From: Candidatus Brevefilum sp.
GTDB taxonomy: Bacteria; Chloroflexota; Anaerolineae; Anaerolineales; Anaerolineaceae
Length of the DNA stretch: 33,781 nucleotides
Assembly: GCA_029210815.1 (NCBI GenBank)
Contig: JARGGB010000033.1
Location: forward strand, 1 to 33,781
Direction: 5' to 3'
Part shown: positions 10,057 through 22,925 of the stretch, piece by piece
How the letters are laid out: every line of letters begins with the position of its first letter
Position numbering within the stretch: the stretch's first letter is position 1
Position numbers and translations under genes: made by a program
The notes under the pieces: generated by a model
Database searches by the model: none
The model's input: the letters and a program-made list of their open reading frames with translations, nothing else
Told to the model about the DNA's origin: nothing

Positions 10057-13000
10057 TCAACCCATTCGTACGATGAGATGATGATCTTTAGAGTCCTGCA
10101 TAAGAGGAATTTTATTATCTTGCATCTTCTCACCATCCAATGTCATTTCTTTGACGCCTTTTTCAATGTGGCCAGGATTTTTCACTTCAATATAAAAAAC
10201 AGAATTGCCATTTTTATAAGTTATATTAAAGCCATCCCAATTATCTGGAATACAGGGGTCAATTGTAAAATGATCACCTTTTAGTTTGAATCCCAGAATG
10301 GCTTCCATACCGAGGCGGTACAGCCATCCAGAAGAACCCGTGTACCACGTCCAACCGCCACGGCCTACGTAAGGGGCTTTACTGTAAATGTCCGCAGCGA
10401 CCACATAAGGTTCAACAGCGTACCGGTTAGCATCTTCATTTGTTAGACTGTGAGTTATGGGATTTAATAATTTAAATTGTTCGTAAGCCTGATATCCCAT
10501 ACCAAGTTCAGTCAAAGCCCAGACTGCCCATACCGCTGCATGGGTATATTGTCCGCCATTTTCCCGAATCCCAGGCGGATAACCTTTGATATAGCCCGGG
10601 TCCTTCTCGGTTTTTTCAAAGGGCGGTGTAAATAATTGAATTAACCTATCTTCCTTTTGGACAAGATGTTCATCCACAGCGTCAATAGCCTTGAATTGCC
10701 TTTCTTTAGGTGCGCCGCCTGTGATTATGGACCAGGATTGCGGCAAAGAATCAATCTGGCATTCCTGATTTCGGTGTGAACCTAAGGGTGTTCCATCGTC
10801 ATAATAGGCTCGTAAAAACCAATTACCATCCCAGGCAACCTGGTTAATGGTCGTTTTGAGTTTCTCCGCTCTTTGTTTGTGTTGATTTGAAAGCGCTTGT
10901 TCTCCTTTGATTTCACATAAATCAGCAAATCGTTTGTGATTTTCATACAGGAACCACGCCAGCCAAACACTTTCACCTTTCCCATCAATACCGACCCTGT
11001 TCATGCCGTCGTTCCAATCCCCACTGCCCATCAAAGGCAAGCCATGCGGGCCTTTGGTGTCTGCATGCGCCAGCGCTCGGTGGCAATGTTCAAATAAGCT
11101 GAATTTCTCTTCACCGGTTTGATAATGGTCGTATCTTTCTTCCTCATCCTTGCTTAAAGGTCTCCCTAATTTAAAGGGGATTTGCTCGTCAAGGATGGTT
11201 TTGTCACCAGTTATTTCGATATATTCTGCAATGACATAGACAAGCCAAAGTAAATCATCCGTAATTCGGGTACGAACACCTCGACCGGAAGGTGGATGCC
11301 ACCAGTGAAGTACATCTCCCTCTTCAAATTGATGCGCAGCGGCACGCAATATATGTTCACGGCTTTCCTGGGGGTCAAGCGCCATTACAGAGGTAACATC
11401 CTGCAGTTGATCGCGAAAACCATAAGCACCGCTGGATTGATAGAACGCAGATCGTCCCCAAATTCTACAGCTCAGCGCTTGATAGGGCAGCCATCGATTC
11501 AAAATGACATCCATCATTGGGTCGGGACTTGATACCTGCAATTTGTTCAGCAGGGAATCCCATTTTTTTACTGATGCTTGCCAGCTTTGCTCAATTACTT
11601 TCCTACTGCTGAAACGCTGGATCAAATCCAGTGCCCTGTCTTCTGTTTCTCCCTGTCCCAAAACGAAAGTGATTGTTTGGGATTCACCAGGCGCAAAATT
11701 GAGATGCGACTGCAGTGCAGCGCATGGATCAACGCCCGATTTAACCGTTCCTGATAAACCAATACGTCGTAAACCTGTCGGGTTGGATCTGCTGCCAGGC
11801 ATGCCTAAGAATTCCTGGCGGTCGGTGGTTAATCCGTGAACAGGCTGGTCAGAGAAAAGAAAAGCTGTATTTTCTGAGAATTCAGCGCTGTAAGTATTAC
11901 GGGCAATCAATGCACCACTTTCATTTATAAAACCTGGAACAATAAAATTATTCGATTTTTCTCGATTAGGTCCAAGAACCCATTCTGCAAAATAGGTTGC
12001 AGTTAACCGTCGGCTTTCTTCTGTATAGTTGGTCAATTTGAGTTGAATAAATTTAACCGGTGCTTTCGGATCCACAAACAGCTTCAATTCCTGTTCGAAT
12101 CCATGGTTATATGACTTAAATATGGTATAGCCCTGACCATGCCTTACAAGGTAACTTACGCCATTACCTGATGGGTATGGTGTGGGAGTCCAGACATTTC
12201 CTGTAATTTCATCCCTTAGGTACAAACTTTCACCACTAGGGTCAGTAACCGGATCGTTTGTCCAGGGTGTGAGCCTGTTTTCGCCGCTGTTTTTCGACCA
12301 GGAGTAACCGCCGCCTGCTTCAGTCACAAGGAAGCCAAAGTTTTGATTTGCAATAACATTTATCCAGGGTGCTGGTGTGTGTTGGCCTTTTTCATTAGCT
12401 GATTTTGGATAGTTTTCCAAAAAAATCTGGTATTCTTTTCCGTTTTGGGTAAATCCACCAATACCGTTATCGAAAATCAAATCTTCTGGTCGCTCGACAG
12501 ACTGATCAATTTGAAATTTCTCATCGCTTGTGGTTGACATGAAAAATGGAAGATGAGGTTCGATTTGATCTGCTATTGTCAGGTGGGTTTCAAGATTTGC
12601 TGAATTTAAATCAATCGCAGCACTTGCAGAAGTTTTTAGCAAAATGACAGAATCTTTGTTCATTTGGCTAGCTGTCAGGACAAAAATCCCACCTCGCATA
12701 TTCAGTTTATCTTGCCCGCCCATTTGATTAATCGCCCGATGAATTTTTTCATTTAACTCATGCTCATAACCCGTATCTTTTGTATTTAGCAAAACCAAAT
12801 CAATCAGCAAACCCAATTTCTGCCAGTAGGCATGAGCAAGCAGACTTTCCTGTAGAGCTTCCAATTCTTCCTGGTGATCAATCATTACTAACAAAATTGG
12901 ATAATCACCTGAAATGCTGAAAGGCCATAGTCCAGATTGATCAAGCGTATTGCTATTCAAAATGGCAATATCGGGACGCAATCTTGCATTTGGGTAAATC

Positions 13001-16000
13001 AAATTTGATAGCAGCTTTTGGTACTTTGAAAGCTGATCACTACTGAGATCCATTGCTCTTAATAGTTTTTCAGAGTATGACTCGGATGAAGAAAAGGCGT
13101 TTTCAACCTTGATTGTATTTTGATAGCTTTTCGCCAGATCCCTTGTTTTATTGAGATTTTCTGCAGCAATTGTTAAGAAATAAAGGTGAATTGTTTCGTT
13201 TGGTTTCAACTCAAAACGCTTCCCCATTGAAAATATTGGATCAAGCGTTATCCCGATATTTTTACCAAGATTAGATTGGTTGTTTAAAACAATCGGATCT
13301 GAAATATCATGCCCTCGTCCAATAAATTTTCCACGGTCCGTTTCATACTCTAGGTCACTACTGCTATCATCAAGGAGCAAATGTGCCATGCCCAATGATT
13401 TTTCTTCTGAAGAGCGCTTTCTTCTCTGGAAGTGGAGCATGTTTAAGTCTGCTTGGTAGCTGCTCTTGATAAACATTTTGTTAAATGCTGGATGCTGCTG
13501 GTCTGCCGATTGCGGTGCTAAGACAACTTCGCCATAACTGAGAACGCGAAGACGTCGCCTTTTATTGGATTGATTTGTAATTGAAATTTTTTGAACACAA
13601 ACATCATCTTTTGGTGTAATTGTTGTTTGCAAGATCACTCGGATATCATCTGTCATGCGGCGAATTTCAGTCATGTGCGGACCAAAAATCACACGGTATT
13701 CCTGAGTATTTGTCTTGACAGGCGCTCGTCCTATCGACCAAAAGATGCCTTTTTCCAAATCCTGAATGAAGTACCACAATCCCCAGGGGTCGAGGGCAGC
13801 GTCACTGCGCCAGCGATTAAGTGCCGTTTTTCCCCATTCAAGATAACCGCTTCCTGATTCAGCCATCAGCATTCGGAGATTGCCGTTAGAGATCACATTC
13901 ACGCTTTTATTCTTTGTTTCTGTATTCACTTGCCAGGGAATGACCATCACGCCTGTTGCATCTTTACTGCGGGTCGCGACTTGCAGTTGATCGGTTTTTT
14001 GCACAGGTTTCGTTTGAGGTATCTGTTCCTGTAACAGCAGCTCGGTAGTTTTAATGCGAGGATCTTTGTGGATTCGCTCAACAATGTTGTTAGAAGCAAG
14101 AAAATTAGCCAAAGCCACCATAATCATCCCCTGGTGATGTGCCATGTAGGATTTAATGACAGCTTTATCCTGCCCAACAGGCAGGCGTGATCGAGTGTAA
14201 TCTATTGATTCATAGAAACCAAAGTGCCCCATAGCACCTTGTCCTTCAAGATCGGCAATATTCTCAATAACTGCTTGATGGTCTATGCCTACCGCCATCA
14301 GTGAGGCGTAAGGGGCAATCACGAGATCTTTTTCTAAACCTCGCTTACGCCCCAAGCCTGGTACACCAAACCCCTGGTATTGGTAATTCTGTGCCTGGTC
14401 GAATCGATAATAACTGGATTCTGAAATTCCCCATGGCACGTTCTTTTTCTTTCCGTATTTGATTTGTGCCTTCACGACACCTTTGCTGGTTTGTTCCAGC
14501 AAAGTTTCCGGGTAAATTTTTGTGAAGAGGTTTGGCATCAGGTATTCAAACATACTGCCATTCCAGGATAATAAAGTTGGGATTCCTTCAATTGTTGTGA
14601 AAGGTCTGCCCATATGAAGCCAGTGAGAACGCGGCACTTCATTTAGTGCAATAGCATACAGACTCGCCGTCCGTGCCTCAGATCCTAATAAATCATAGTG
14701 ATTTTTATCAAGACGACCAGATCCAACTTGATATCCCAGATAAAATACTTCTCTGCTCTCATCAAATAAGAAATCAAACTCCATTCTTTCCAGGGAAAAT
14801 GAAATTTTTTCTTGCAAACTTTTGATGAGATCTAATGTTTCCTGTGCGTGTGCTTTTGAATCCTCCAAATTACCAATAAACTTTATCATCCATTTTGAAA
14901 TTCTCTGCCTTTGAATTGAATCAAAATTATTAAAAATCTCATGATCTTCAAGGGACAACAAGCTCGTAAGTGCATCAATTGTTCTTTCGCACAAAGGAGG
15001 AACTTCGGAAATGCTCGATTTCAAAGCTCGATCATTGAGCCAGGGTTGAAAAACATCAAGCCATAATTCATTATTAAAATTTCTCAGGATTTCAGGTCGT
15101 TCTTGCCAGGTTTCCATCCACGGGGCTAATAAATTAATCTGGCTGCGCATATTGACAAGGTGCTGGTAATTAACATTAGACCAATAACGCAGGTCTTTCA
15201 TGATATCTGCATCGATGGTACCCTCCATGCGGGCGATTTTTTCAAGAAGTAAGTTCATCGGCTCTGTCATGAGTTCTTCAAAATTACCAAGAAGTTCCAT
15301 TTGCCGAGAATCTGTCAGTAAACCTTCACGGATATCGTTCTGAATTTTCCGGCAGTGTACCAGCAGAGATTCTGCTGAATGCTTAAGGTCTGGCTCAACA
15401 ATCGAATTTACAACAGAGCAAAAGACATCAAGACCATCAATCGTTCCCTGGAACAGATTCCTGTGGCTGATTTGGTGCCCCGGTAAATCTTCCAAAGTTT
15501 GGTATAGTCCAATCAAACTGGTCGCATAATTTCCACTATCAACAGTTGAGACATATCTTGGTGCGAGGGTTTCAAGCGTCACGGTGTCGTACCAATTAAG
15601 CAGATGGCCGCGGTATTTCTCAATCTCGTCCAGGGTTTCAAATGTGAAAGTCATCCTGTAAACAAAATCAAGAATGGCGATATACCCCATGTCATATGCT
15701 GAGCAGGTTGAGAGCATCATCAACCCAATATTTGTCGGCGAGGTCCTATGAGCAATCATCCCTTTTGGATCTTCTTGGAAATGATCTGGCGGCAGCCAGT
15801 GATCTTCTGGTCCAATAAAGCGTTCGAAATAAAGCCATGTTTTCCGAGCGAGCATCCGGAGTTTCTGGATCTCATCCGTTTTTAGTGGTTCCACATTGTT
15901 TGCAGCCTTTTCCAGGCTTATCCAATAGGCTGCTTGTGGCGAGAAAAACCACAGGAACAAAATTGGAAAGCATGTTAAGAAACATCCGGGTTGGAAGATG

Positions 16001-18564
16001 TAAATAAGCAAACCAACCGCAAGGCTGAGTAATGGTGCGCTCACCATTCGCTGCCAGATGATAGAGATTTTGTGTTGTTTTCCAAACATTTGGATTGTAT
16101 GGGCAGCTGTTTGCCACTGCAGTAATCGTTTATGGCTGATATATACGCGGATGAGCGTTGTGATAATTGCATCCACCATGATAATCGAGTCATACGGCAA
16201 AAAGATAAGCCACAATAACCAACGAGAAAATGCCGTTTTTAGATTCTCGAATAGGTTAACCTTGCCACCAGATATGAATCGAGAGGAGAGAGAAGTAACT
16301 ATGTTATTCAAAAGAGGAAAAGCTGAAATCGCTAAAACAATCAAAGTCCAAACCCAGGCATTTCCTTCAAAAATGAACCATCCAATGGTCAGGAGCAGCA
16401 TCGTCAAAGGAGAAAAAAGGCTTCTTCTCAAATTATCAAATATTTTCCACAGATCAATGATAGAAAAGGAATTTGAGCTAAATTGCCCATCTCGCATTGG
16501 AACTTTTGGAAAAAGCCAGGGCAGCAATTGCCAGTCGCCACGAACCCAACGATGCGTCCTTTGAACCTGGCTGGCGTAATTTGGCGGATACTCTTCAAAG
16601 AAGACAATATCCGTCACTAAAGCCGCCCTGCCTTGAATGCCTTCAAATAAATCATGGCTTAATAAAGCATTGTCCGGCACTTTCCCTTCCAGGCTTCTAT
16701 GGAAAGCTTTGACATCATAAATACCCTTGCCCACATAGATACCTTCAGCAAACAGGTCCATGTAAATATCGGAAACCGCACGGGTATATAAATCCAGACC
16801 TAAATCCCCGGCAAAAATTCGAGTAAATAAAGACCGGTTTACAGAGGTTGGTTTGACCTCTGTTCGAGGCTGCAAAATCGTGTAACCGCTGATAAGCGCT
16901 CCTGTTTCTGCATCAAATTCTGCTCGATTAAGAGGGTGTGAAAGCGTTGCTATCAAGTCTTTTACGCTGTCACGCGGTAATACAGTATCCGCGTCAACGG
17001 TAATCACAAATGCTACATCTATTAAAAATTTGGTATCACCAATGATTGTGTCGAAGCTATCCTTAAAACCTTCCAGCAAATACCTGTTGAAATCAGCCAG
17101 CTTCCCACGCTTTCTTTCCCATCCAATCCATGAATTCTCTTTTTCGTTCCATTGTCTGCGGCGGTGGAACAGGTAAAATGGGCGGTGTCCGTGGTCGCCA
17201 AGATATCGATTATTTAAGCGATTAACGCCCCGAATGGTTTCCTCAAGCAAGGTTTCATCTACGGGCATTGATTCCTCGGGTGCATCGCTGAAATCAGTTA
17301 GCAAAACAAAGGCAATATTTTGTTGTTTATTGGCAAGGTAATGTAATTCAAGTTGCTCAAGTAAAAATTGGATTTCTTCTGAATCCGACAATAGAGCGGG
17401 AATGGTAACCACTGATCGGTACTGGCGTGGTATCTTGTTTTTGTAATCCATTTTAGGCAAGATACGCGGTGGGAGAATCGTCGTAAGAATTGAGTTGACC
17501 AGGTTGGTCGCCACACTCGTGGCGGGCACAAAACTTACCAACAAGATTGTGATCAACAACCACAAACTATTAATCAGATTGCTGCTGAATAAAAGCAAAG
17601 CCCCCATCACAAGAAAAGAAATAAATGTAATCGTGCCTAAATAGAAGCCTGTCCGATGCTTAAAGAAGAATTTATGAATTCTTCCAGCAGTTGTGTGTTT
17701 ATAATTTATTTCTTCTTTAAAATCATCCTCACCGTCACTGATGAGATAATATCCAACGTGTTTGAATTTTTCACGCCCATCATTGGCAGTTTTTGCAAAA
17801 TTTACTGCAGTTTGTGCAATTTCTTCCTCACCATAATTTGATTGTTCTGAAAAATGCTCAACCTTTTTTCGGTAGATGTCCCGCGATTCAAAATCCATCG
17901 AAGAATAGACGCCGCCAGGATCTTCGGCAAGTATCTTTTCAACTAATGAGTGGACCTCAAAAAAAGATTTCCAATCAATTTGATCCAGCAAGATCAGCGT
18001 TCTCAAGGAACGCGCAACGATTTCACTTGAATCGAGTTCAGGGAATTCTAGATTGTTCGTGCTATGAACAACTTTTTGATTTTTAATGAGGTTAAAGATT
18101 GTTCCAGAAATGATTTCTATTAGGCATAATCGGAGCATCAGTGGGAGAGCCCACAATTCACTCATTTTTAAAGGGACTTCTTTTTGATATGCATCTAAAA
18201 ATTCATGGAGATCATTATGAACGAGTTCTATCTCATAATATTCCACCATTCGTCGAGCGATGTCGTAAATTCGTGGGGCATTGGGTTTTCCATCTTTTGA
18301 AGGCAATTTGCTGAAATAAATTTCTGGTAAATCATCTTGAATGAGTTCGATAGCTTCCTGGACCACATGGTAGTTATCAAGGAACCACTCCACGCCGCTT
18401 GAGGCAATTTTTTTTGCCTCTGCTGAGCTGCTCAGTTCAAGAAAAGCTTTTTTTAAGTTTTCATAATAATTTTGTGTGTCTTCGACAACCTTGTAATCAG
18501 TAGATTTTTCTTGAGTAAGCTTAGTTTCGTCAATAACAGAACGAATAAAATCTTCAAATGTCAT
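10057..18564 (-). CDS. cgs: Cyclic beta-1,2-glucan synthase (GT84-GH94)
   Basis: 2835 residues, almost the length of Brucella Cgs and Rhizobium NdvB/ChvB (about 2830-2870), and full length by motif order. After an N-terminal helical part come membrane segments at about 305-360. The GT84 transferase follows with Asp524-Ala-Asp526 (VDADTVLPRD) and the processive QxxRW box (QVQRTHRW, 666-673). More membrane segments lie at about 720-870. Then come a glycoamylase-like region (APYASLMAVGID, about 1415), two GH94 supersandwich units (starting near 1565 and 2085), and the GH94 catalytic barrel with GSGDWNDGMN (DWND at 2516-2519). In the known enzymes UDP-glucose is polymerised on the protein itself, the phosphorylase end sets chain length, and the chain is released as a ring. 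The start is ATG 18564 with AGGAGAAGG upstream. It lies 38 nt after uspA. Confidence 0.92.
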   Translation of the reverse strand: MTFEDFIRSVIDETKLTQEKSTDYKVVEDTQNYYENLKKAFLELSSSAEAKKIASSGVEWFLDNYHVVQEAIELIQDDLPEIYFSKLPSKDGKPNAPRIYDIARRMVEYYEIELVHNDLHEFLDAYQKEVPLKMSELWALPLMLRLCLIEIISGTIFNLIKNQKVVHSTNNLEFPELDSSEIVARSLRTLILLDQIDWKSFFEVHSLVEKILAEDPGGVYSSMDFESRDIYRKKVEHFSEQSNYGEEEIAQTAVNFAKTANDGREKFKHVGYYLISDGEDDFKEEINYKHTTAGRIHKFFFKHRTGFYLGTITFISFLVMGALLLFSSNLINSLWLLITILLVSFVPATSVATNLVNSILTTILPPRILPKMDYKNKIPRQYRSVVTIPALLSDSEEIQFLLEQLELHYLANKQQNIAFVLLTDFSDAPEESMPVDETLLEETIRGVNRLNNRYLGDHGHRPFYLFHRRRQWNEKENSWIGWERKRGKLADFNRYLLEGFKDSFDTIIGDTKFLIDVAFVITVDADTVLPRDSVKDLIATLSHPLNRAEFDAETGALISGYTILQPRTEVKPTSVNRSLFTRIFAGDLGLDLYTRAVSDIYMDLFAEGIYVGKGIYDVKAFHRSLEGKVPDNALLSHDLFEGIQGRAALVTDIVFFEEYPPNYASQVQRTHRWVRGDWQLLPWLFPKVPMRDGQFSSNSFSIIDLWKIFDNLRRSLFSPLTMLLLTIGWFIFEGNAWVWTLIVLAISAFPLLNNIVTSLSSRFISGGKVNLFENLKTAFSRWLLWLIFLPYDSIIMVDAIITTLIRVYISHKRLLQWQTAAHTIQMFGKQHKISIIWQRMVSAPLLSLAVGLLIYIFQPGCFLTCFPILFLWFFSPQAAYWISLEKAANNVEPLKTDEIQKLRMLARKTWLYFERFIGPEDHWLPPDHFQEDPKGMIAHRTSPTNIGLMMLSTCSAYDMGYIAILDFVYRMTFTFETLDEIEKYRGHLLNWYDTVTLETLAPRYVSTVDSGNYATSLIGLYQTLEDLPGHQISHRNLFQGTIDGLDVFCSVVNSIVEPDLKHSAESLLVHCRKIQNDIREGLLTDSRQMELLGNFEELMTEPMNLLLEKIARMEGTIDADIMKDLRYWSNVNYQHLVNMRSQINLLAPWMETWQERPEILRNFNNELWLDVFQPWLNDRALKSSISEVPPLCERTIDALTSLLSLEDHEIFNNFDSIQRQRISKWMIKFIGNLEDSKAHAQETLDLIKSLQEKISFSLERMEFDFLFDESREVFYLGYQVGSGRLDKNHYDLLGSEARTASLYAIALNEVPRSHWLHMGRPFTTIEGIPTLLSWNGSMFEYLMPNLFTKIYPETLLEQTSKGVVKAQIKYGKKKNVPWGISESSYYRFDQAQNYQYQGFGVPGLGRKRGLEKDLVIAPYASLMAVGIDHQAVIENIADLEGQGAMGHFGFYESIDYTRSRLPVGQDKAVIKSYMAHHQGMIMVALANFLASNNIVERIHKDPRIKTTELLLQEQIPQTKPVQKTDQLQVATRSKDATGVMVIPWQVNTETKNKSVNVISNGNLRMLMAESGSGYLEWGKTALNRWRSDAALDPWGLWYFIQDLEKGIFWSIGRAPVKTNTQEYRVIFGPHMTEIRRMTDDIRVILQTTITPKDDVCVQKISITNQSNKRRRLRVLSYGEVVLAPQSADQQHPAFNKMFIKSSYQADLNMLHFQRRKRSSEEKSLGMAHLLLDDSSSDLEYETDRGKFIGRGHDISDPIVLNNQSNLGKNIGITLDPIFSMGKRFELKPNETIHLYFLTIAAENLNKTRDLAKSYQNTIKVENAFSSSESYSEKLLRAMDLSSDQLSKYQKLLSNLIYPNARLRPDIAILNSNTLDQSGLWPFSISGDYPILLVMIDHQEELEALQESLLAHAYWQKLGLLIDLVLLNTKDTGYEHELNEKIHRAINQMGGQDKLNMRGGIFVLTASQMNKDSVILLKTSASAAIDLNSANLETHLTIADQIEPHLPFFMSTTSDEKFQIDQSVERPEDLIFDNGIGGFTQNGKEYQIFLENYPKSANEKGQHTPAPWINVIANQNFGFLVTEAGGGYSWSKNSGENRLTPWTNDPVTDPSGESLYLRDEITGNVWTPTPYPSGNGVSYLVRHGQGYTIFKSYNHGFEQELKLFVDPKAPVKFIQLKLTNYTEESRRLTATYFAEWVLGPNREKSNNFIVPGFINESGALIARNTYSAEFSENTAFLFSDQPVHGLTTDRQEFLGMPGSRSNPTGLRRIGLSGTVKSGVDPCAALQSHLNFAPGESQTITFVLGQGETEDRALDLIQRFSSRKVIEQSWQASVKKWDSLLNKLQVSSPDPMMDVILNRWLPYQALSCRIWGRSAFYQSSGAYGFRDQLQDVTSVMALDPQESREHILRAAAHQFEEGDVLHWWHPPSGRGVRTRITDDLLWLVYVIAEYIEITGDKTILDEQIPFKLGRPLSKDEEERYDHYQTGEEKFSLFEHCHRALAHADTKGPHGLPLMGSGDWNDGMNRVGIDGKGESVWLAWFLYENHKRFADLCEIKGEQALSNQHKQRAEKLKTTINQVAWDGNWFLRAYYDDGTPLGSHRNQECQIDSLPQSWSIITGGAPKERQFKAIDAVDEHLVQKEDRLIQLFTPPFEKTEKDPGYIKGYPPGIRENGGQYTHAAVWAVWALTELGMGYQAYEQFKLLNPITHSLTNEDANRYAVEPYVVAADIYSKAPYVGRGGWTWYTGSSGWLYRLGMEAILGFKLKGDHFTIDPCIPDNWDGFNITYKNGNSVFYIEVKNPGHIEKGVKEMTLDGEKMQDNKIPLMQDSKDHHLIVRMG

Positions 18565-19562: not shown

Positions 19563-19669
19563 AATAAATGCTCCTCAATGATTTGAATTGAACTTTTCAT
19601 TGAAACAAATTGTTGGCTTGATGTCGTTTGACTTGCTTCAAACAGGTACTGATATTACCTTGTATAATT

Positions 19670-19698
19670 ATTATATTGCGAATACACAAAGAAACCAA
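19670..19698 (-). promoter_or_regulatory. Candidate promoter of the uspA-cgs cluster
   Basis: On the minus strand TTGGTT (19698-19693), a 17-nt spacer and a perfect TATAAT (19675-19670) give a predicted leader of about 100 nt before uspA. A second TATAAT faces the other way at 19663-19668, but without a -35 partner. Confidence 0.4.
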
Positions 19699-19789
19699 AA
19701 CAGGAAGAAGGACCATAGCTTTTTTTAAGAATATTTTTGTTTGATAAAGCAGTAATTGGAAACATGGAACAAATAAACAGGAAAAATCA

Positions 19790-20962: not shown

Positions 20963-21341
20963 TTTTGGGGATCCATCATCGAAATAATCACTTTTACTAC
21001 TTGGCACTGTTTGCATGTTCAGAAAATGTTAAATGGGTGATCATTAAATTTGCTTATATGTAACCAAATTTAGGGGAAATGCATCAAAAGAATAACAAAT
21101 GGCAACAAATATCACGGCGCTTAAAGAGCAAAACAGCTTCCAGAATGAAAGTTGCATTGTGCTAATTGTCTTAATAGCTTCACAATAAAGGGGATCAAAA
21201 TTTTATTGAGAATTCTTATCAAAATCCTTTTGATGATATTGCTGTCTGTTCTTTAGAAAGGAGAGCAACATTTTAGTCATTGATTAATAAATCAATTTTT
21301 GCAATAATTGTAGAAAAGAACGACAAATAAAGGAGCAAAAA
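20963..21341. other. Intergenic leader region upstream of the sigma-factor gene
   Basis: This stretch of about 380 nt has no convincing gene. It contains the perfect palindrome at 21279-21296 and a purine-rich AAAGGAGAG at about 21257 that resembles a ribosome site but has no start codon after it. No clear terminator for the upstream lipoprotein gene is seen. The sigma-factor ribosome site AAAGGAG lies just before 21342. Confidence 0.5.
21279..21296. promoter_or_regulatory. Perfect palindrome, candidate operator of the sigma-factor gene
   Basis: ATTGATT-AATA-AATCAAT is a perfect 7+4+7 dyad, 45 nt before the sigma-factor start codon. It is AT-rich, so chance cannot be excluded. Its position suits repressor or autoregulatory binding. 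Confidence 0.4.
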
Positions 21342-22319
21342 ATGGTTATCAGAACAAAAACAATCGAAACAAAAGACCTGAAGTATTACGAAAAAATTTC
21401 AGACCAAACCGGCATCATCGCAGATGATACTGTAAGCCTGTATTTGAACGAAATGGACCGGGTACCGCTGCTGACGAAAGAGGATGAAGTTGAATTAGCA
21501 AAACATATGGAGGCAGGGCGGATAGCACGGGAAAAGATGCTGGATTATGACAGTGACAGCATAGAATTCGAAACTTTGAAAAAAGCAGTAGAGAAGGGGC
21601 GAGACGCTAGAGATCACTTGATCAAAGCAAATATCCGTTTGGTAGTGAATATTGCGAAAAAATATCGGCGGTACAGCTCGTCTTTTCTCGATCTGATTCA
21701 AGCCGGCAACGTGGGCTTGATCAGGGCAGTGGACAAATTTGATTACACCCGTGGAAACCGGTTCTCCACCTATGCAACATGGTGGATACGCAGATCTGTT
21801 CTGCGCCATTTGAACCAAAAAGAACGGACCATCAGGCTGCCAAATTACCTTTCAACAAAAATAAGAAAGGTGCATCGTGTGCGAAAGGAATTGACTACAG
21901 TACTCTCACGAACACCTACCAATGAAGAAGTTGCCAAACAACTAGATATGTCCGCAGAAGAAGTGGGGAAATTGCTGGAGTATGCACAAAGAGCGATTTC
22001 ATTGGACCAGCCAGTGGGGGAGGATGGGGAATCCGATTTGCAAAGTTATATTGAAAATAAAGATGCCCCCAATCCATTTGTGGAAGTTCGTCAAAACTTG
22101 CTTGCTGAAGATGTCATCGACGCACTCAATAACTTAACGGAAAGAGAAGCGAAAATACTTATCTTTCGTTATGGTTTGAATGGTTCACGAAAGCACACAT
22201 TAAAGGAACTGGGTGAGATATTTGGAATTACAAGGGAAAGGATCCGGCAGATACAAAAGGGCGCGCTGCGAAAATTGCGTCATCCAAGTGTAAGGCAAAA
22301 ACTGCACAACTATTACTAA
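21342..22319 (+). CDS. Group 2 (RpoD-related) sigma-70 factor
   Basis: 325 residues, without region 1.1. Region 1.2 is at about 29-62 (DDTVSLYLNEMDRVPLLTKEDEVELA). Region 2 includes DLIQAGNVGLIRAVDKFDYTRG (117-138) and FSTYATWWIR (141-150). Region 3 is at about 165-235, and region 4 holds the HTH ITRERIRQIQKGALRKLRHPS (296-316). The -35-contact residues of E. coli RpoD (RERIRQ) are unchanged. In region 2.4, however, E. coli WWIRQAITRSI is here WWIRRSVLRHL, so the -12-contacting Gln437 and Thr440 become Arg151 and Leu154. This looks like an alternative sigma factor with its own -10 preference (inference). The ribosome site AAAGGAG is strong. A membrane protein gene follows by 31 nt in the same operon. 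Confidence 0.9.
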   Translation: MVIRTKTIETKDLKYYEKISDQTGIIADDTVSLYLNEMDRVPLLTKEDEVELAKHMEAGRIAREKMLDYDSDSIEFETLKKAVEKGRDARDHLIKANIRLVVNIAKKYRRYSSSFLDLIQAGNVGLIRAVDKFDYTRGNRFSTYATWWIRRSVLRHLNQKERTIRLPNYLSTKIRKVHRVRKELTTVLSRTPTNEEVAKQLDMSAEEVGKLLEYAQRAISLDQPVGEDGESDLQSYIENKDAPNPFVEVRQNLLAEDVIDALNNLTEREAKILIFRYGLNGSRKHTLKELGEIFGITRERIRQIQKGALRKLRHPSVRQKLHNYY

Positions 22320-22350: not shown

Positions 22351-22854
22351 ATGCCATTCACATATACGTACACAGCAAGAAGTGCACGAAACCCGGAAAA
22401 GGTCATTACCTTTACCATCTATGAGGATTATCTCAAGGTGAACTTAACTGGCCTTTTGGATAAGGTGCCTGATATTATGGAAGAAGATCAGCGGAAGGCG
22501 GCCATAAAATCGTTCCTGGCTAACCAGTCTGGTTCTGCTCTTTACAAAGCAGTTGAGCGTTTATCAGGTCCGGTTCATATCAATGATGTCAGTCCAAATT
22601 TAGAGGATGGGCAATTCAAACTCACGCTCTGGAAACGATTAGCTGGACTGCGATTAGCACCCATCACACTCGCCATGGTCAATGTTGACAATCCGGACGC
22701 AGCAGCTCAATTCATTGAAACCTTACTCGAGCGTCAAAAAAGCGCTGAAGTCCCTGATGTTTTTGCAGGACCTTTGGATTACTGGATAACCTGGATTGGC
22801 ATGTTGATCGGGCTGATCGTGCTGGTCAGGTGGCCGCGCAAGGACAAAACATAG
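22351..22854 (+). CDS. Hypothetical protein with C-terminal membrane anchor
   Basis: 167 residues of no family I recognise. The ATG at 22351 has an excellent ribosome site (GAGAGGAG, 7 nt upstream), and the stop is followed by a terminator, so it is a real gene. Residues 1-140 are soluble and mixed alpha/beta, opening with alternating strands (FTYTYTARSARNPEKVITFTIYED split by a turn). Residues about 142-160 form one membrane span (DYWITWIGMLIGLIVLVRW) followed by a basic RWPRKDKT end. With no signal peptide, the soluble part should face the cytosol. It sits 31 nt after the sigma-factor gene in one operon. A membrane-tied regulator of that sigma factor is one possibility, but there is no anti-sigma motif to support it. 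Confidence 0.75.
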   Translation: MPFTYTYTARSARNPEKVITFTIYEDYLKVNLTGLLDKVPDIMEEDQRKAAIKSFLANQSGSALYKAVERLSGPVHINDVSPNLEDGQFKLTLWKRLAGLRLAPITLAMVNVDNPDAAAQFIETLLERQKSAEVPDVFAGPLDYWITWIGMLIGLIVLVRWPRKDKT

Positions 22855-22884: not shown

Positions 22885-22925
22885 CACCACAATCTGAAAA
22901 TTCATGGCAGATTGTGGTGTTTTTT
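22885..22925 (+). terminator. Strong intrinsic terminator of the sigma-factor operon
   Basis: CACCACAATCTG (22885-22896) pairs perfectly with 22908-22919 over 12 bp with an 11-nt loop, followed at once by six T. Confidence 0.95.

Follow-up and report, generated by a model that had tools for sequence, protein, structure and literature searches.

A group 2 sigma-70 factor of Brevefilum-like Anaerolineaceae with arginine and leucine at the two positions facing the −12 base pair

INTRODUCTION

Group 2 sigma-70 factors such as mycobacterial SigB, the cyanobacterial group 2 sigmas and Escherichia coli RpoS keep the Gln437 of the primary sigma, RpoS with Glu at position 440. The Bacillus subtilis SigA substitution Q196R is reportedly a suppressor at −12 and was not used as evidence here. 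In E. coli sigma-70, the helix face turned towards −12 carries residues 437 and 440, and a T:A to C:G change at that position is suppressed by either Q437H or T440I (PMC2613000; PMC8321222); His455 and Glu458 act at the extended −10 element (PMC2613000). Q437, T440 and R441 are described as conserved sigma-70 residues in the phyla covered by another study (PMC8407463), and His437 is reported in Hodgkinia RpoD and Leu or Ile at 440 in Carsonella RpoD, both being eroded endosymbiont sigmas (PMC8321222).

Here we describe a sigma-70 gene in a contig of Candidatus Brevefilum sp. (JARGGB010000033.1; the whole stretch of 33,781 nucleotides is referred to as the window), from a genome of 2.66 Mb that is 96% complete. 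The encoded protein resembles SigB, the cyanobacterial group 2 sigmas and RpoS in having regions 1.2 to 4 without region 1.1, in its RpoD-like region 4.2 and in being extra to a primary sigma, and SigB and RpoS chains are among its PDB sequence matches. Unlike these proteins, it carries Arg at 437 and Leu at 440 (R/L in the shorthand used below), and so departs from the primary-like −10 contacts of region 2.4 by which the group is recognized; among the NCBIfam matches listed (25 of 51), the general superfamily model is the one model to score above its cut-off. The two changed positions are those of the E. coli Q437H and T440I suppressors, and in both cases 440 becomes aliphatic; those are laboratory single mutants of a primary sigma, whereas here a paralog naturally carries both changes, Arg rather than His being the new residue at 437. 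Natural changes at the same positions also link it to the RpoD proteins of Hodgkinia and Carsonella, which are described as altered at one position in a reduced endosymbiont, in contrast to a retained paralog with both changes that stands beside four Gln437 sigmas. Our search of the open-licence literature found no report of a natural R/L sigma.

MATERIALS AND METHODS

The search for relatives covered 61 genomes (the host and 60 relatives), 16 of which belong to the genus (Brevefilum-like Anaerolineaceae). Two peptide patterns from the alignment of the paralogs A and B described below were scanned against 84,980 species genomes, a procedure that detects only proteins containing those peptides. 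Residues 437 and 440 were read in distinct bacterial RpoD-like ORFs from the fetched loci, keeping blastp matches with E of 1e-8 or better and leaving out ORFs of <100 aa, identical ORFs, aligned segments without the WW pair, viral loci (which were counted separately) and the 20-kb stretches L182–L241. The class search covered 396 genomes, the phylum search 151 and two family searches 11 and 6, and residues were taken from the best matches of each search, at most 30 loci per search. E. coli numbering was transferred via the Trp433-Trp434 pair, and it is consistent with the residue numbers in the published papers.

RESULTS

The sigma gene and its altered region 2.4

The gene and its relevant segments are as follows.

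21342 to 22319, plus strand: group 2 sigma-70 factor, paralog A, 325 aa (ORF, Pfam, orthologs)
21330 to 21336, plus strand: ribosome-binding-like AAGGAGC, preceding the start at 21342 (sequence)
21780 to 21815, plus strand: region 2.3/2.4 helix WWIRRSVLRHLN (translation and alignment)
21792 to 21794, plus strand: codon of Arg151, E. coli Q437 (translation and alignment)
21801 to 21803, plus strand: codon of Leu154, E. coli T440 (translation and alignment)
22230 to 22253, plus strand: region 4.2 TRERIRQI, primary-sigma-like (alignment to SigA/HrdB chains)

Pfam Sigma70_r1_2, r2, r3 and r4 all score above cut-off in the 325-aa protein, with region 1.2 at residues 29–59, and the Pfam search gave no match for region 1.1. 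The first-pass annotation had placed the start at 21480, which is 138 bases late: the ORF with the ribosome-binding-like AAGGAGC begins at 21342, and a start at 21480 would remove 46 codons, part of region 1.2 included. The residue numbers 151 and 154 given there match the start at 21342. Its observation that Gln437 and Thr440 are replaced by Arg151 and Leu154 within WWIRRSVLRHL holds in both the translation and the alignment, as does that of an RpoD-like RERIRQI in region 4.2 (alignment to SigA/HrdB chains and clade alignment). The segment Trp147-Trp148-Ile-Arg-Arg151-Ser-Val-Leu154 aligns without gaps to WWIRQAIT of actinobacterial SigA/HrdB chains, and likewise aligns with WWIRQ(S/A)(I/V)(T/S) of the other RpoD-like sigmas of the host genome. 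The aromatic residues usually associated with −10 melting (W147, W148 and Y144) are conserved in the sequence, and at the extended −10 positions the alignment places Tyr169 at His455 and, at Glu458, Thr172 in paralog A and Asn in paralog B. The replacement of Y425 by Asn was considered as a distinctive mark and dropped, being widespread in Chloroflexota sigmas.

Two paralogs confined to one genus

Paralog A (the window type) and a second type, paralog B, each occur in 6 of the 16 genus genomes, several of which are incomplete. The paralog A orthologs in five other genus genomes are 71–94% identical to the window protein and the paralog B proteins 62–65%. Among the eight genus members that are at least 90% complete, A is present in five, B in six and neither in one (G008, 96% complete, in which no match to A or B was found), as would be compatible with a sigma dispensable for growth. 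Full-length matches in the 45 non-genus genomes do not exceed 50% identity, with short stretches up to 54%. The pattern scan returned 11 loci, nine of them A or B of the same genus, together with an incomplete relative (63%) that lacks region 2.4 and lies at an Anaerolineaceae contig end, and a distant Flavobacteriales sigma with Q/L; among the genomes searched, A and B were seen in one genus only, the Brevefilum-like Anaerolineaceae. All 12 clade members (6 A and 6 B) have R/L, and a sequencing slip can therefore be discounted. Besides paralog B, the host genome encodes four other RpoD-like sigmas, presumably including the primary sigma, and all four keep Gln437, with T or S at 440; the R/L pair, which the first-pass annotation named as counter-evidence if present in the primary RpoD, occurs in none of these four.

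A maximum-likelihood tree (42 rows) recovers A (support 100/98), B (100/99) and A+B (100/99) each as a clade, and A+B stands apart from the other four RpoD-like sigmas of the host, so that the earlier question whether R/L marks a distinct clade is answered positively. The nearest outgroups are L066 with Q/I (fork 97/96) and L062 with Q/L (fork 85/53, on a long branch flagged as unsure by the program), and their close family members have Q/T, Q/A or Q/V. Because Gln437 with Leu or Ile at 440 also occurs in these nearest outgroups, the tree hints at an order in which 440 turned hydrophobic before 437 became Arg on the genus stem; this would be the simplest reading, its first step being weakly supported. 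Across A and B, 32 of the 34 columns from 138 to 171 (region 2.3–3.0) are invariant although the B proteins have an overall identity of 61–63% to the window protein in this alignment, and are therefore considered to be kept by selection. At the level of the alignment this shows constraint on the new residues, and by itself it is no proof of a new function, since regions 2.3–2.4 are conserved in sigmas generally.

Residues 437 and 440 in other sigma factors

In the 139 distinct bacterial RpoD-like ORFs that were read, a sample that is not a census and that, being drawn from nearest matches, favours recovery of R/L, the 437/440 pairs are Q/T (100), Q/S (14), R/L (12), Q/L (7) and Q/A (2), with one case each of Q/I, Q/V, Q/G and H/G. 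Position 437 is thus Gln in 126, Arg in 12 and His in 1, and Arg437 is limited to paralogs A and B, the other 127 ORFs being without R/L. Position 440 is looser than 437, as Leu or Ile together with Gln437 recurs, the nearest outgroups of the clade included. Arg437 is absent from the viral sigmas (27 distinct WW rows from 34 loci; Gln 26, His 1).

Two further variants were noted in the sample. A sigma of the same class (L306, genome G092) has a natural His437 with Gly440 (WWIRHAVGRAI), its Gln-to-His change being the one known from the E. coli suppressor. In another class of the same phylum, three sigmas (L301, L302 and L304) combine Gln437 and Leu440 with PEY replacing PVH at 453–455, which resembles the PNYL of the A/B clade and possibly represents a parallel change.

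The downstream gene and the neighbourhood

Downstream of the sigma gene, the window contains two further features.

22351 to 22854, plus strand: protein of 167 aa, a single hydrophobic segment at its C-terminal end (Pfam and PDB searches without significant match)
22885 to 22925, plus strand: intrinsic terminator after the pair of genes, 12-bp stem and six T (fold −18.2 kcal/mol, z −4.4)

The gap between the sigma and the 167-aa gene is 31 bases, and the two are probably co-transcribed. The terminator does not appear in the terminator scan because its 11-base loop is larger than the loop limit of 8 used there. Searches of Pfam and PDB gave no significant match for the 167-aa protein (best E 0.05 and 0.99, respectively) and no known anti-sigma domain. 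Among 37 genomes searched, the protein is present in five of the six paralog A genomes and missing in the sixth (G010, 97% complete), a contig-edge fragment is found in G002 and the remaining 30 have none; this co-occurrence with paralog A agrees with the earlier view that the downstream protein belongs with the sigma. The protein may be a membrane-tethered regulator of the sigma, possibly a new kind of anti-sigma. A required anti-sigma role is unsupported, given the low quality of the structure model (pLDDT 47) and the absence of the protein from G010, a genome with paralog A.

Near the sigma gene the window encodes a universal stress protein, and the surroundings of paralog A contain, in differing subsets, a PAS histidine kinase, a response regulator, a receiver-like protein, GAPDH, an M50 protease, BON and baeRF. 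This neighbourhood points to a stress role, short of proof. The stretch 19563–19789, from which the genes of the universal stress protein and an N_BRCA1_IG-domain protein diverge, contains the palindrome AGGTAnTGATAnTACCT and TATAAT-like boxes, both of which are kept in G012. Elsewhere in the window, positions 10057–18564 form a single ORF of 2835 aa that by eye is like cyclic glucan synthases/glycoside phosphorylases.

Upstream regions of the two paralogs

Two overlapping elements precede the ribosome-binding-like sequence.

21280 to 21308, plus strand: putative promoter TTGATT-17-AATAAT, its second hexamer preceded by TG (weak in the consensus scan; alignment)
21279 to 21296, plus strand: palindrome ATTGATT-AATA-AATCAAT (sequence; fold not significant)

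The putative promoter, which has A at −12, is identical in the 94% relative; the consensus scan found 2 sites in the sigma upstream region versus a mean of 5.3 in shuffles. The left arm of the palindrome overlaps the putative −35 hexamer. The palindrome had been taken as part of a dedicated control unit, a role that is unsupported here: its folding energy is equalled in 15 of 200 shuffles, it is imperfect in the nearest (94%) relative and no counterpart is visible upstream of the other four orthologs. Nothing clear emerged beyond the two closest relatives when the upstream regions of the six paralog A genes were aligned. Judged by eye, positions 21000–21280 weakly resemble a small gene. This gene precedes the sigma in intact form in G012 and G003, and in the window it seems to be eroded.

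The paralog B leaders (L039–L044, e.g. G000:C43) have a conserved TATAAT in all six genomes, followed 51–56 bases later by a terminator-like repeat, CCCATTGACG ... GTCAATGG with a T-run, that starts 87–116 bases before the sigma start. This conserved inverted repeat is a possible attenuator. A conserved TTGTT...AACA block lies further upstream.

Promoter patterns in the genus

The pattern TTGACA-N16-18-TATAAT occurs at 15 sites in the host genome versus 1 for the reversed pattern and stands out in the genus. Exact TTGACA-N16-18-CATAAT has 1 site in the host genome (reversed control 0) and 0–3 in each of nine further members of the genus, whether or not these have the paralogs; the host site looks like shared coding sequence because its string resembles, by eye, sites in four other genus members. 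With the shorter −35 pattern, TTGA-N18-20-CATAAT and -GATAAT occur 32 and 59 times, respectively, in the host, 56 and 68 in G012, 61 and 58 in G013, and 19 and 22 in G008, which has neither paralog, and in each of the 16 genomes both are more frequent than the reversed controls. The C:G ratio ranges from 0.54 to 1.15 where A or B is present (eight genomes) and from 0.64 to 1.27 in the other eight, in which neither paralog was found and several of which are incomplete; the ratio shows no clear tie to the sigma. Both patterns have densities of about 17–21 per Mb in G012 and G013 versus about 8–10 in G008 (rounded genome sizes, uncorrected for base composition and coding sites), a difference that is uninterpretable because most sites are probably coding.

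Hexamer enrichment behind TTGAC or TTGA, in upstream regions drawn from 800 kb of the G012 genome and 400 kb of that of G013, recovered the standard promoter only. Exact xATAAT behind a TTG-type −35 in the same regions has T at 31 sites, A at 14, G at 7 and C at 6 (reversed sequences: T 4, A 4, C 1), and C at −12 is therefore no commoner than G. A small excess of TTGA...CCATAA (7 versus 1.4), most sites of which precede genes without a visible link to the sigma, was treated as chance, given the 4096 hexamers and the C and G counts. Two sites with C at −12 in G012 lie before receiver-like and universal stress protein genes of the paralog A neighbourhood, and are not kept in the orthologous regions. 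Footprints in 138 reciprocal-best gene pairs yielded four conserved promoter-like sites, with T at −12 in three and G in one. The pattern searches thus gave no clear sigma-linked excess of C at −12 in the genus, a result that a small regulon could escape; inference of the regulon by hexamer enrichment, ortholog comparison and footprints is underpowered, and the regulon may be too small for these promoter tests.

DISCUSSION

We favour, with moderate confidence, the interpretation that the gene encodes a functional, non-primary group 2 sigma-70 that would have arisen by duplication inside one Anaerolineaceae genus. With core polymerase, the unchanged region 4.2 would read an ordinary −35 element and the usual aromatics W147, W148 and Y144 would melt the −10 element, whereas the readout of the −12 pair and the adjacent extended −10 bases is predicted to differ from that of the primary sigma, a specificity change that the residue pattern makes plausible. 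In the simplest form, a base other than T would be accepted or preferred at −12, with C as the best guess by analogy with E. coli Q437H and T440I, each of which favours C. The regulon would be a stress or starvation set, as the orthologs lie near stress-type genes. Against an altered −12 readout stand the promoter searches in the genus, which gave no evidence of a changed base there, the A at −12 of the sigma's own putative promoter and the conserved TATAAT box upstream of paralog B.

A quite possible alternative, in our view less probable, is that the factor has the same TTGACA/TATAAT preference as the primary sigma, with R/L tuning affinity or activator dependence and the regulon set by the timing of expression. 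Conservation of region 4.2 and of the melting aromatics would fit, as would the prominence of TTGACA/TATAAT sites in the genus, the TATAAT found both upstream of the universal stress protein gene in the window and in the upstream box of paralog B, and the natural looseness of 440 in the RpoD-like sigmas of the phylum. This sits poorly, however, with the retention of both changes in every clade member and with position 437 itself, where Gln is otherwise nearly invariant (126/139) because it reads the −12 base pair. It is rather improbable that −12 is simply ignored, the factor relying on −35 and −11/−7 and using a broader set of weak promoters; the replacements extend to H455 and E458 of the extended −10 contact, its own putative promoter has A at −12, and CATAAT and GATAAT patterns are both denser in G012 and G013 than in G008 (uncorrected for composition and coding), but new residues fixed across A and B fit a specific contact better than the loss of one. 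That the paralogs are decaying duplicates with drifted contacts, as their patchy occurrence in genomes several of which are incomplete might suggest, can practically be dismissed, as none of the 12 ORFs has an internal stop and few parts of the protein are as well conserved as the changed region.

The interpretation of an altered −12 readout can be extended to a more specific and somewhat unlikely scenario, in which duplication and the ordered changes T440 to Leu/Ile and Q437 to Arg would have given a paralog pair with a normal −35, a new first −10 base (probably C) and a stress regulon insulated from the primary sigma. If true, the ordered substitutions would repeat in nature what the suppressor experiments did in E. 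coli. The R/L sigma is also a candidate orthogonal sigma for promoter engineering, and its fixed natural double change, together with relatives that carry the single change at 440, would provide an evolutionary series on shifts in −10 specificity.
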